Assembly: GCF_000190435.1 (NCBI RefSeq)
Contig: NC_015152.1
Location: 1,866,458 to 1,930,457, forward strand
Source of the DNA: Sphaerochaeta globosa str. Buddy
Lineage (GTDB): Bacteria > Spirochaetota > Spirochaetia > Sphaerochaetales > Sphaerochaetaceae
Direction of reading: 5' to 3'
Length of the DNA: 64,000 nucleotides
Below the pieces are notes generated by a model, which did no database searches, was not told the DNA's origin, and was given only the letters and a program-made list of their open reading frames with translations. Every line of letters starts with the position of its first letter. The first letter of the stretch is position 1. Position numbers and translations under genes: made by a program. This document shows, piece by piece, positions 17,242 through 21,695 of this stretch.

Positions 17242-17363
17242 GTATAAATATAATGGAACACCATTGTATCTATTCCAATACGTTTCTTTGTAAGGCATCT
17301 TTACCTTTTTTCTAATTTACGCTAAGGTTTCCACGTTTCCGGTACTATGGTACCTGTAAGCAT

Positions 17364-17437
<74 letters not shown>

Positions 17438-17452
17438 GTACAAACAAACCAC

Positions 17453-17500
17453 TATAAAGAAAGAGGATACTGGCTACAAAACCGGTATCCTTTCTTTATA
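17453..17500 (+). terminator. Terminator after tRNA-Arg
   Basis: A long inverted repeat (arms near TATAAAGAAAGAGGATAC and GGTATCCTTTCTTTATA) with a short loop lies 16 nt after the tRNA. T-rich stretches lie within the 3' arm. Confidence 0.7.
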
Positions 17501-17529
17501 TACCAGACTACCCTACCCTAAGCTACATC

Positions 17530-17676
17530 GTGATCTACATCAAGAAGCAAGATAAAGATCTTTCAAGCGATGGGTCACCAGCAGTTCTGCCGATGAACAG
17601 AGAGGTATTCTCACAGGAAGTGCGGAAGAACTTGTTTGAGAGCGACCTCGAAGCGCTGAGGATGATTTGGAGATAG
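17530..17676 (+). pseudogene. Short coding remnant, unknown
   Basis: A 48-codon frame from GTG reads VIYIKKQDKDLS...VRKNLFESDLEALRMIW and has protein-like composition and base usage closer to the host than to the island genes. It has no ribosome-binding site and could be the tail of a decayed gene. The rest of 17501-18091 holds no frame or RNA that I can support. Confidence 0.25.
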
Positions 17677-18091
17677 GATGAGTATGTGTATTTCAATTTC
17701 ATCCTGGCTACAGCAGGGAAAAGCAGAGTTGTGCTATTGATGATTCAGAGAGCTGAGCTGATCCTGGAGCATGAGAACACATTTCATGGGCTTTCTGATT
17801 CACATAATCTAAACCTCTGAGTCCCGCTACATTCGGTGATTTTGGTAAGTAAGCTTGTTCAAAATATGCATAGCAACAGAAGAAAAGAGTTCAAAGAATT
17901 TCCTTGCAGAGCCTTGATAATTGAGCCAAGGTTTTGTCTTTATCAGGAGAAAGCCAAAGAGTCCTGATTATGCCTAAACGGCCAGATATGGAGTAATAGA
18001 TTAACCAGAGGTACTTAATTCATAATTTACATTGTCAACCTAGTCAATGAGTGATAATATTTGTCTTAGTATTGCAATGGGGGTCAAAATA

Positions 18092-18814
18092 ATGACAAGT
18101 TCTGATTTTACAGGTCTAAATACACTAAATACATTTGTGAACCAATCCCGGAATAATTTGCTTAATTATTTCTGCAAAACATGCTTTGTTCTGGGTAAAT
18201 TTAATCAGAGCACTCAGTTCTATGAAATGTTAGGAACATGTTTCTTAATTAAAAACAACCTAATAGCAACATCAACACATGTTATTGGTGGAAATACTTC
18301 TAATCTCTTTATTTTTTTCCCTGAAATCTTGGAGATTAACTCATATCAAGACGTTTCCAATACTGAATGCAAACCAATTCCTGCTGAGATTGTCTCACAG
18401 AATCCTTTTTCTGATATTACAATTTTGAAAACTGACATAAGCTATTCTGGTAATTTGATTCCATTGGGCTCATTTGATGATACTTCTATACTAGAAACAC
18501 TTTGGGTTTTCGGCTTTCCACATTGTGTTGAGGGCAGAAGAGTTTTTACAGCACAGCAGGCAGAGCTTGGAGCGAAGATCTTGTTGTCTAGCAGTAATAT
18601 CAAATCAAAGTTTGGTGTTTTAAATATTCAATCCAGACCGGGACAATCTGGAAGTATTGTTTTTTCTCCCACTAAAAATAAGATTGTGGGAATGCTAGCT
18701 GGCGCATATGCCATCGATTGTGGAATATCTCTTGGGGGCATTAATCCTAGAGAACTTAACCAGACAACTCAGTGTATTTCTGCTGAGTATATTTCCGAGA
18801 TGCTCGAAGAGTAG
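18092..18814 (+). CDS. Trypsin-like serine protease
   Basis: A 240-residue S1-fold protease. The start at 18092 is preferred because GGGGGT lies at normal distance; an in-frame ATG at 18047 would add 15 residues. The catalytic triad is visible: H63 in LIATSTHVIGG, D108 in NPFSDITILK, and S186 in RPGQSGSIVF. Length and order match a minimal trypsin domain without PDZ or membrane segments, and there is no signal peptide, so it is probably cytoplasmic. It is AT-rich compared with flanking genes and followed after 10 nt by a gene for a membrane-tailed protein. Cytoplasmic trypsin-like proteases in islands are known in bacterial conflict systems; that role is inferred here. Confidence 0.8.
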   Translation: MTSSDFTGLNTLNTFVNQSRNNLLNYFCKTCFVLGKFNQSTQFYEMLGTCFLIKNNLIATSTHVIGGNTSNLFIFFPEILEINSYQDVSNTECKPIPAEIVSQNPFSDITILKTDISYSGNLIPLGSFDDTSILETLWVFGFPHCVEGRRVFTAQQAELGAKILLSSSNIKSKFGVLNIQSRPGQSGSIVFSPTKNKIVGMLAGAYAIDCGISLGGINPRELNQTTQCISAEYISEMLEE

Positions 18815-18824
18815 GAGTCTAATT

Positions 18825-19283
18825 ATGCAATCTCAAGATTTTTCTGATGTCATATCTCAACTTCCAAAATTCCAACGAAGACTAGTTATTGAATTGCTCG
18901 GTGAGAAAGAAGCTTACTTATCAGCTGCAGAAACATATTTCTTAACTTCTGGCCCTGACAATATGCAACCATTTGGTGGAGAACCGTTTACAAGCAAGGA
19001 ATCTAAAGAATCAAAGAAGGCTTTATGGCCAAATTTCTTAAAAGAACTCAATAAATTAATATGCGGTCATCCAGAATACTCTACAAATAGAGAAGAGTTT
19101 TTCAAAGAAAGTGATACATTAAGAACTATAATTATTACTAATGTCTCAGCATACATGGGAATCAAATTTGGAATACCAGCAACTTATTTGGCTCCGATTA
19201 TTGTACTTATCGTTTGTGCTGCTATTAAGGTCGGAAAAAATGCATATTGCTCAACGTATTATGATGAGATGGAAGCTTTGTAA
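18825..19283 (+). CDS. Small membrane-anchored partner of the protease, unknown family
   Basis: A 152-residue protein whose start is set by GGAG 9 nt before the ATG; the open frame extends upstream into the protease gene but without a site. Residues 1-40 are predicted helical (FQRRLVIELLGEKEAYLSAAE), 45-100 polar, and 112-136 form one hydrophobic segment (GIPATYLAPIIVLIVCAAIKVG), followed by a short polar tail. No enzyme motif. It shares the AT-rich composition of the protease gene and is almost certainly co-transcribed. It could anchor, inhibit or be the substrate of the protease. Confidence 0.7.
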   Translation: MQSQDFSDVISQLPKFQRRLVIELLGEKEAYLSAAETYFLTSGPDNMQPFGGEPFTSKESKESKKALWPNFLKELNKLICGHPEYSTNREEFFKESDTLRTIIITNVSAYMGIKFGIPATYLAPIIVLIVCAAIKVGKNAYCSTYYDEMEAL

Positions 19284-19676
19284 CTACTACACCAATTCTA
19301 AATCAAATTTCCTAACAACCTCTAATATTGATGTATATACGCTGATAGTTGCTGATAAAACTACCTATTCTTATCTGCTTATATTTCTTTATCAATTAAT
19401 CTCTTATGATTGTCATTGATAGCGGTTGATAAACCCACAATGGCGCCTTCTAAGCAGTAGGTCTTATCTCGCCTCCTCCTGGTGTATTCGATCAAGCGGT
19501 CTGATTCTATGAATAGTATCTTTCTTCTTGATTTCCTATACCTTTTCCTTGACTTCTGACATACCTTGACGTAGTGTGAATTCGGGCATTTCTGATTGGG
19601 CTAAATCCTCATGTGAAAGACTTGACCCTCTACATTTACTCGTACTGCTTTACATCCCCACTGGGAAAAAGAGGTA
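19284..19676. other. Gene-poor island right end and flank
   Basis: About 390 bases without a supported gene. The first ~160 are very AT-rich, then comes the 19-bp tRNA-Arg repeat (19445-19463), after which composition returns towards that of the host. No RNA gene is seen. Confidence 0.5.
19445..19463 (+). repeat. Right att-like copy of the tRNA-Arg anticodon arm
   Basis: Exact copy of the 19-mer at 17394-17412. The flanks do not match the tRNA further in either direction (the preceding GGC replaces ACT, and the following TTATC replaces GTAGG), so this is not a second tRNA. Confidence 0.65.
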
Positions 19677-19880
19677 TTGATTTTGCTTGCATATGATATA
19701 CGTGTTCAGGTCAATTGTTTGTTTGATTACTGTAAAGTCTTCTCAATGAGTAATGATGATTTGAGAGAATATACTCGACTAATTTGGTATGGCTACGACG
19801 AAGTAGGCCCTGCTGTTTATAGAAAGAATCCGGAGACGGGGATGGTGGTTCGCATCGATTTCCTGAAAGAATCCGTCTAA
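19677..19880 (+). CDS. Small protein, paralogue A (67 aa)
   Basis: A TTG-initiated frame with AAAAAGAGG just upstream. The product resembles the 63-residue product at 20087 along its whole length: YDIRVQVNCLFDYCKVF against FDLRIQAQHHFDYCRVF, and WYGYDEVGPAVYRKNPETG against WFGYDEEGPAVYREDPDTG, both ending VVRIDFL. Conservation between the copies supports both as real genes. No family was recognised. There is no signal peptide or membrane segment. Confidence 0.6.
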   Translation: MILLAYDIRVQVNCLFDYCKVFSMSNDDLREYTRLIWYGYDEVGPAVYRKNPETGMVVRIDFLKESV

Positions 19881-20086
19881 AAAACTTCGGCTTTTGACAT
19901 ATCTCATGATAATTGCAAGGGAAGTGTCATAGTTCAATCTTGACGCCTCGCGTAGAAGGTCCTACGCTTATGCCATGAGAGGCATCTTTGTGGACTTCTT
20001 AGGTGTATCGCCTCAGAGACAGCGCAGTGAACAACTGTTCTTCAGGTTGTTTTTCCTTCAGGCAGAAACTAGAGGAGGCTTGACTG

Positions 20087-20278
20087 ATGCTGCCATTTGA
20101 TCTTCGCATCCAGGCACAACATCACTTCGATTATTGTCGGGTCTTCGACTTTCCAAAGGAAGCCAAACTACTGCGTTTCACTCGCGTCAAATGGTTTGGC
20201 TATGATGAAGAAGGACCGGCCGTCTACCGGGAGGATCCTGATACAGGGGAGGTTGTACGTATAGATTTTCTTCACTGA
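20087..20278 (+). CDS. Small protein, paralogue B (63 aa)
   Basis: An ATG start with GAGGAGG 9 nt upstream. The 63-residue acidic product has the conserved core FDYCRVF ... WFGYDEEGPAVYREDPDTGEVVRIDFL (quoted in parts) shared with the protein at 19677. Two tandem copies 200 bases apart indicate a local duplication. Function unknown; the short length and regular beta-strand-like pattern in the second half suggest a small single-domain protein. Confidence 0.65.
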   Translation: MLPFDLRIQAQHHFDYCRVFDFPKEAKLLRFTRVKWFGYDEEGPAVYREDPDTGEVVRIDFLH

Positions 20279-20457
20279 CCGTACAGCAGAAAGGCTTAAA
20301 TCGCTGGACAGTATCACAATACTGGGATAGCGTTTACCAACAAGAAAACTCATCGTTCAGACCCTGAATTGTCTGAAAGGTTTTGTAATTATAAGTTGTT
20401 ATTTTGTAATATTTTGTTTTAGTATTTTTAAATGTAAAGGAATTTTAGGTAAACTAG

Positions 20458-20486
20458 TTGACAGAGGTGGATAAATATTCGATATT
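20458..20486 (+). promoter_or_regulatory. Probable promoter of potABCD
   Basis: TTGACA (20458) and GATATT (20481) are 17 bp apart, about 80 bases before potA. The 286 bases before potA contain otherwise only AT-rich sequence. Confidence 0.5.
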
Positions 20487-20564
20487 CGCATTGAATCGTG
20501 AAGGCTCCATAGTCTCCAACTATGGAAATTCTATGCCTGAAACGAGTGGAGGGAATGGAAAAGA

Positions 20565-21695
20565 TTGAAAGGTGTTGAAGTTTCTGTCGAACGGGTTTCC
20601 CGCTCCTATGGCGATTTCAAGGCACTCGACGATGTGAGTGTCAAGATAAACAAAGGTGAGTTCTTCTCACTGCTGGGGCCTTCCGGGTGTGGCAAAACCA
20701 CCCTGCTTAGGATTATCGCTGGGTTTGATTACCCTGATTCTGGAAGCGTGGCGTTCGACAACAAGGACATTTTGCCCTTGCCGCCGGATAAAAGGCAATC
20801 CAACACTGTATTCCAGACCTACGCATTATTCCCCCACCTAACGGTCTACGAAAATATTGCCTTCCCTCTACGTCTCAGACGTGTAGACAAGCAAACCATC
20901 GAAACCAAAGTCATGGAATACGTGCGCCTCGTGCAGCTTGAAGACCATGTCAATAAAAAACCCTCAATGCTCAGCGGCGGTCAAAAGCAGCGCGTTGCCA
21001 TTGCCAGGGCGCTCATCAACGAACCACGAGTACTGTTGCTTGACGAGCCTTTATCCGCCCTCGATGCAAAGCTTCGCCAAAACCTGCTGGTTGAACTGGA
21101 CCAAATCCATGACAAAGTTGGAATCACATTCATCTATGTCACGCACGACCAGAGCGAAGCACTCTCTGTTTCAGATCGTATTGCCGTCATGAACAGAGGC
21201 AAGGTTCTGCAGATTGGTACTCCCTACGAAATTTACGAGGCTCCGGCAACTCGTTTTGTTGCCCAGTTCATCGGCGAATCAAACAGCTTCCCGTGTACGG
21301 TAGTCTCCTGCGAACCGTATGAAGGCGAATATCTGATACGTGTCGACGTTCCAGCCTTGCAAGGGGAAATATCGGTTACCGATTATGAACCCCAGGCAAT
21401 TGGAGCTGCACTCGATTTTACCGTACGTCCGGAGAAAGTACGGATCTCCGCCAACCCTCCCCGCAGTACCGTGAAAGAACTCAACACCTTCAAGGGCGTG
21501 GTTGATGAACCGGTGTATTCGGGATTCCAATCCAAATTTTATGTCAAACTCGAACGGGTGCCTTCCACCCAGGTTAAAGTCTTCAAGCAGCACACCGTAT
21601 TCCTTGAGGATGGTCCCGACATTGAATGGAAGGATTCTGTCTACGTCAGTTGGACAGCAGCTGACGGCTATCTGGTAAAGGATACCGACCGATGA
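20565..21695 (+). CDS. potA: Spermidine/putrescine ABC transporter ATPase
   Basis: A 376-residue ABC ATPase started by TTG with GGAGGG upstream (the nearby ATG at 20555 is out of frame). Walker A is GPSGCGKTT, the signature is LSGGQKQRVA, and Walker B with D-loop is VLLLDEPLSALDAKLR, followed by the switch His in YVTHDQSEA. A C-terminal TOBE domain (~290-370) is typical of PotA/MalK-type ATPases. The gene overlaps potB by 4 nt and is the first of potABCD. Confidence 0.92.
   Translation: MKGVEVSVERVSRSYGDFKALDDVSVKINKGEFFSLLGPSGCGKTTLLRIIAGFDYPDSGSVAFDNKDILPLPPDKRQSNTVFQTYALFPHLTVYENIAFPLRLRRVDKQTIETKVMEYVRLVQLEDHVNKKPSMLSGGQKQRVAIARALINEPRVLLLDEPLSALDAKLRQNLLVELDQIHDKVGITFIYVTHDQSEALSVSDRIAVMNRGKVLQIGTPYEIYEAPATRFVAQFIGESNSFPCTVVSCEPYEGEYLIRVDVPALQGEISVTDYEPQAIGAALDFTVRPEKVRISANPPRSTVKELNTFKGVVDEPVYSGFQSKFYVKLERVPSTQVKVFKQHTVFLEDGPDIEWKDSVYVSWTAADGYLVKDTDR

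Follow-up and report, generated by a model that had tools for sequence, protein, structure and literature searches.

What do two small adjacent genes, one for a trypsin-like protease (A) and one for a hydrophobic helical partner (B), do in the chromosome of Sphaerochaeta globosa str. Buddy? They lie in a stretch of 64,000 nucleotides (NCBI RefSeq assembly GCF_000190435.1, contig NC_015152.1, positions 1,866,458 to 1,930,457 of the forward strand), hereafter called the window. The original prediction, made from the letters of the window, was that of a two-gene module, a candidate for defence or conflict. We find that the pair is a real, well-defined and catalogued candidate system which is as yet uncharacterised, and that its genes and their surroundings are laid out as follows (window positions):

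17363..17438, + strand: tRNA-Arg (anticodon TCT), the integration site
17394..17412, + strand: attL core, 19 bp, GCCTTCTAAGCAGTAGGTC, within the anticodon arm of tRNA-Arg
17559..18010, + strand: decayed integrase remnant and left-end DNA common to sister elements (tblastn 2.7e-16 to the 388-aa integrase of G005; internal deletion and stops)
18092..18814, + strand: gene A, cytoplasmic trypsin-like (S1/HtrA-fold) serine protease, PDC-M35A, 240 aa, triad H63-D108-S186
18825..19283, + strand: gene B, all-helical partner, PDC-M35B, 152 aa (N-terminal helical region; low-confidence loop at about 42-56; hydrophobic hairpin at about 99-136; KxGxNAxC tail)
19284..19444, + strand: conserved right end of the element, up to attR, about 80% identical in sister elements
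19445..19463, + strand: attR core, the same 19 bp, GCCTTCTAAGCAGTAGGTC

The protease and its helical partner

Trypsin_2 (PF13365, E 7.4e-10) is the sole Pfam domain of A above the cut-off. The three triad residues are invariant in the A alignment (22 relatives), and the same 22-sequence alignment reveals further fixed motifs, namely YQD 85-87, PH 143-144, GR 148-149, PGQSG 183-187 and a C-terminal P..L.QT. Structure models were computed with AF2 from alignments drawn from the window and the fetched loci. The model of A (20 relatives, pLDDT 80) has a chymotrypsin-type fold, with M. tuberculosis MarP/Rv3671c and HtrA proteases as its nearest fold matches. A thus combines the trypsin-like domain and H-D-S triad of S1/HtrA-fold serine proteases; it differs from HtrA/DegP in that neither Pfam nor the sequence revealed a PDZ domain, an export signal or anchor, or an N-terminal hydrophobic segment. 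Together, the PF13365 match, the invariant triad, the MarP/HtrA fold and the lack of an evident signal peptide confirm that A is the cytoplasmic protease with a complete triad that had been predicted. Which start codon A uses is uncertain, given that in most relatives the protein starts about 23-25 residues later: the candidates are an upstream in-frame ATG at 18047, the ATG at 18092, and a TTG at about 18158 that would match the relatives.

The model of B consists of helices only (pLDDT 78.7), with a weakly modelled loop at about 41-60. Its hydrophobic stretch of about 38 residues is modelled as a hairpin of two helices (99-115 and 119-136), followed by the conserved tail K.G.NA[WY]C, and most relatives outside the Bacillus group carry uncharged runs of 30-45 residues. 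Because the stretch is long and modelled in this way, the single C-terminal span of the original prediction may in fact be a two-helix hairpin. The other part of that description, the lack of a known domain, held: none of 22 family members gave a convincing Pfam match (best E 0.049), no fold match at E <= 0.001 was returned by PDB and viral fold searches, and the Pfam, PDB and viral fold searches yielded no recognised pore-forming family or fold. The top VIA-align match was a designed protein (Z 4.2); Bcl-2 and hemoglobin also appeared but were set aside as generic helical matches that give no evidence of kinship.

A protein encoded at L132 (1306-1800) carries the C-terminal half of B fused to an unrelated N-terminal region, and no trypsin-like gene lies nearby. 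This arrangement suggests that the hydrophobic domain of B is modular. The L132 protein had no match in the plasmid search.

Catalogue identity and pairing

Compared with PADLOC-DB 2.0.0, A matches PDC-M35A (E 2.2e-79, residues 29-238 aligned to positions 6-216 of the 216-position profile) and B, 10 nt downstream, matches PDC-M35B (E 1.5e-33). Both are near full-length matches, and the genes are adjacent and in the same order as in PDC-M35; the composition is identical, and the window copy stands apart only as the cargo of a decayed tRNA-Arg element. By these profile matches, the pair is PDC-M35, a catalogued phage-defence candidate. The earlier statement that the pairing was not one to be recognised was therefore wrong, and the claim of novelty falls with it, while the catalogue entry gives independent support to the defence hunch. 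PDC entries came out of a guilt-by-embedding screen as candidates, and most are unvalidated (PMC10855318; PMC12988326); the screen goes back to a preprint by Payne et al. (2024), as cited in PMC12988326. Our literature search found no paper that names or tests PDC-M35, nor any characterised two-gene system of a trypsin and a membrane protein. Newly resolved here are the tRNA-Arg element that carries the window copy and the presence of the pair in this genome.

In the window, A and B are consecutive on the same strand and sit in a G+C dip (35.2% for the pair, 50.2% for the whole window). A three-sequence A profile was run against 84,980 genomes and 2.9 million viral contigs, and 21 A loci were recovered from these scans, in Aeromonas, Vibrio, Cellvibrionaceae, Clostridia, Paenibacillus, Bacillaceae, Pontibacter, an actinomycete, Acetobacteraceae and others. 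B follows A in 20 of them, the exception (L049) being a contig that ends inside A; at L058, B is frameshifted, which may be an assembly error. Among 72,556 plasmids a single one carries A (Priestia pN447-3.3); it is also the only one with B, and the two genes are adjacent. Searches from the side of B gave two genomes out of 393 in the phylum of the window and two out of 398 in a second phylum, B adjoining A in all four, and two matches in a sample of a third phylum. One of the latter has A; the other is L132, where the match covers the C-terminal half only (47 bits) and no protease is near. The plasmid, genome and B-side searches thus all found adjacent A and B genes, which excludes that the two never co-occur elsewhere.

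The two genes also evolve together. Searches from the side of B showed a single copy in 10 of 10 carriers, the gap between A and B ranges from -8 to +10 nt with a 4-nt overlap as the commonest arrangement, and the distance matrices of A and B are strongly correlated (Mantel r 0.881, a value that none of 9,999 permutations reached). In close pairs, A and B both show purifying selection (dN/dS 0.01-0.18). Carriers span Bacillota, Pseudomonadota, Bacteroidota, an actinomycete and the window's own phylum. The pairing, the purifying selection and this conservation across several phyla show that A and B are real genes rather than chance reading frames, and the two form an essentially inseparable, co-evolving operon. 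As the scans use short conserved patterns and samples, these counts give a strong co-occurrence rule and not a census.

Several searches were negative. Genome contigs scanned with a single A sequence gave no match, whereas the three-sequence alignment did; viral contigs scanned with the B alignment gave none; phage records had no match to A, B or the P2-borne A; and the Aeromonas pair was absent from the E. coli genomes searched. With the PADLOC A profile, most relatives gave matches, but only 2 of 149 exceeded 260 bits, the matches in most relatives being due to generic trypsin/HtrA proteins.

The carrier element and other genomic settings

The window pair is carried, with no other cargo, by a 2.07-kb element that is inserted at tRNA-Arg, bounded by the 19-bp repeat and left with a decayed integrase. 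A 22-nt version of the att repeat is the only direct repeat of at least 15 nt reported in 17300-20600. The features of a tRNA-integrated mobile element are all present: a tRNA target, att sites as direct repeats, an integrase (intact in sister elements) and shorter sites in relatives. The tRNA 3' remnant past attR is decayed in the window and intact in the sister elements. An ORF at 17458-17676 was rejected as a separate gene, since tblastn to the sister integrase identified it as integrase debris. The flanks are conserved in congeners, with superoxide dismutase and tRNA-Arg on the left and a potA-like gene on the right.

Sister elements in G005, G018, G001, G025, G002 and G017 match the left end of the window element (pieces of 17440-18010) and its right end (19281-19463), and nothing between. 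Their left end encodes a 388-aa tyrosine integrase (PF00589, 1.9e-25); G005, G018 and G025 have it intact, others in a damaged form. Five genomes (G013, G010, G012, G019 and G009) are free of the element; there the flanks are about 0.6-0.8 kb apart, a much shorter tRNA-potA interval. The sister cargo is a HEPN_RiboL-PSP protein in G018, a 730-aa ATPase-like protein with a weak PDC-S06 match (4.8e-13) in G025 and G017, where it lies in two separate tRNA-Arg elements (L093 4727-6919 and L097 3845-6037), and unknown proteins elsewhere. Shared ends with differing cargo indicate an element family made of an integrase and one exchangeable cargo slot, which in the window is filled by A and B. For a search for more defence candidates in the genus, this family is a convenient starting point.

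Small elements of this family were seen at the same tRNA-Arg of congeners at L085, L088, L089, L093, L094 and L096/L097, and several of their cargo proteins, which have no Pfam or PADLOC match, are candidate conflict genes. The T-arm of the tRNA reads GTAGGTTCGATTCCTAC in the window (17363-17440) and AGAGGTTCGAGACCTCT in the empty site or remnant form of relatives (L084, L085), a difference from which integration appears to replace the 3' half of the tRNA. Just outside the element, two related small ORFs lie side by side (19677-19880, 67 aa; 20087-20278, 63 aa) and share the motif GYDExGPAVYRxxPxTGxVVRIDFL; DNA related to them occupies the same site in most congeners.

Elsewhere, the pair lies directly behind hsdS and hsdR (L047) or, in a type I restriction locus, between hsdM/hsdS and hsdR (L048). 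An OLD-like TOPRIM ATPase/nuclease is near it at L045, tyrosine/serine recombinases at L043 and L050, and an HTH regulator immediately upstream at L042 and L044. At L057/L058 it belongs to a Bacillus-type prophage and at L055 it is placed between the P2 gpA and portal genes. A pair 81% identical to that of L055 is present in 12 of 5,426 E. coli genomes; in both of the two inspected, a P2-like prophage holds it in the gpA-gpQ slot, with DinI on one side and the portal gene on the other. One such E. coli pair borne by a P2-like prophage lies at L111 9001-10091. In neighbouring prophages this slot holds SIR2+ATPase, ParA+RelA/SpoT, retron Ec67, and HEPN or P-loop NTPase genes. The gpA-gpQ interval of P2-like prophages is a tested anti-phage hotspot (Rousset et al., PMC9122126), but part of its cargo serves other functions (PMC9122126), and the location of the pair is thus suggestive and not proof. 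No obvious defence gene was near the pair at L038, L039, L040, L046 and L051.

Occurrence on a tRNA element, on a plasmid, in prophages, in type I restriction loci and near recombinases supports describing the pair as a mobile module. The conflict role proposed for it gains support from the strict co-occurrence, the mobile context, the defence hotspot and the PADLOC candidate entry, although the interpretation as a whole is only partly supported.

Proposed role and competing explanations

We consider it most likely, if well short of certain, that PDC-M35 is a mobile two-gene module which protects the carrier cell, or its own element, against phages or competing elements; this judgement covers a defence or conflict module as a whole. 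It is favoured by the PDC-M35 match, the obligate pairing, the mobile, restriction and hotspot contexts and the precedent of protease-effector systems. Several points count against it: PDC entries are mostly unvalidated, five loci have no obvious defence neighbour, P2 slots and tRNA islands hold non-defence cargo too, B fits no recognised pore-forming family or fold, and L132 has a B-like protein without a protease.

How might such a module work? A and B would act as a sensor/protease and a membrane effector. In the uninfected cell, either A or the N-terminal region of B itself would keep B inactive. Upon infection A would become active and cut B, perhaps in the 42-56 loop with its conserved F-G or else at about residues 91-98, before the hairpin begins, freeing the C-terminal hairpin; this would insert into the inner membrane and lead to growth stop or cell death before phage release. 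Protease-activated pro-nucleases in Hachiman/AVAST offer a precedent (PMC12799240). Activation of B through cleavage by A, taken alone, is a possible step that we put forward tentatively.

Beyond PDC-M35, several known systems can be compared with the pair. In the nuclease-protease pairs of Hachiman, AVAST, Lamassu and DRT (HamM with trypsin-HamA, among others; PMC12799240), as in A and B, a trypsin-like protease is obligately paired with an effector, and A is weakly similar to the protease domains of RT-Protease_XI (5e-12), LmuA (6e-8) and HamA (3e-7). In HamM-type pairs, however, the protease is fused to a sensor and the partner is an MBL-fold nuclease, whereas A stands alone and B is a downstream, helical, hydrophobic protein with no Pfam match. 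Trypco1 and Trypco2 (Kaur et al. 2020, PMC7159879) resemble B as stand-alone partner genes beside trypsin-like peptidases in conflict loci. Neither was among the Pfam matches of the 22 B members, in a Pfam release that may not hold both domains, and no vWA, MoxR or VMAP genes were seen around A and B.

A functional parallel would be the bacterial gasdermins, membrane-active effectors that are freed by trypsin- or caspase-like proteases. Gasdermins are mixed alpha/beta proteins, in contrast to B, which at 152 aa is predicted to be all-helical and matches no family. B could be the first of a family of immune effectors that disrupt membranes and are gated by a protease, its all-helical hydrophobic hairpin being distinct from gasdermins and released by a dedicated stand-alone trypsin-like protease. 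The two proteins would form a minimal infection sensor and executioner with no NTPase, spreading as the sole cargo of very small integrative elements and of slots in prophages; we regard this proposal as doubtful. If the defence reading is true, few protease-based immune modules would be smaller: the pair takes up about 1.2 kb and has neither an NTPase sensor nor a fused recognition domain, and how a lone trypsin-like protease senses infection becomes a testable question. The copy in E. coli P2-like prophages makes a standard laboratory test straightforward.

Much of the same evidence would suit a toxin-antitoxin-like or addiction system, which we judge unlikely. B would be a membrane-active toxin and A an antitoxin that degrades it in healthy cells; loss of A, or its inhibition by a phage, would let B accumulate and kill. 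Such a system would stabilise mobile elements and might give abortive infection. The obligate pairing, the role as single cargo of small mobile elements, the plasmid copy and the hydrophobic hairpin all fit, and a protease gene upstream of the toxin gene with a 4-nt overlap suits co-production. The invariance of the triad is compatible with either direction of control, but the restriction-operon and P2-slot locations favour defence over mere addiction, and proteolytic antitoxins of this type, with A degrading B, are rare. The prophage settings bring in superinfection exclusion or competition between elements, where a membrane-located B, processed by A, would keep related phages from bringing in their DNA or from assembling, without cell death. 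The pair is indeed an accessory of P2-like and Bacillus prophages, and exclusion factors are often small membrane proteins; but its presence in restriction operons and in a non-phage tRNA element, and an obligate protease for which such a factor has no obvious need, make this explanation rather improbable.

That A is a cytoplasmic HtrA-like quality-control protease with B as its membrane adaptor, and no conflict role, appears very improbable. The HtrA/MarP fold match of A speaks for it, as does the conserved paralogue, likewise trypsin-like, that congeners hold in a BCCT transporter operon. Against it stand the scattered occurrence (2 of the 393 genomes from the window's phylum), the mobile contexts and the lack of a PDZ domain or signal peptide, and the BCCT-linked paralogues form a separate, degenerate group without B. 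Congener proteases scoring about 80 bits had been considered as A relatives with other partners; they were rejected as degenerate BCCT-operon proteases.

In these operons, a BCCT (betaine/choline/carnitine) transporter gene is consistently followed by a trypsin-like gene, the two often overlapping, in congeners and other related genomes (L024-L035 and L037; for example L029 5486-7745). The catalytic Ser is replaced by Thr, Ala or Ile at GxSGG, and His or Asp is also lost in several. Judged from these substitutions, the BCCT-linked protein is a conserved transporter-linked pseudo-protease.
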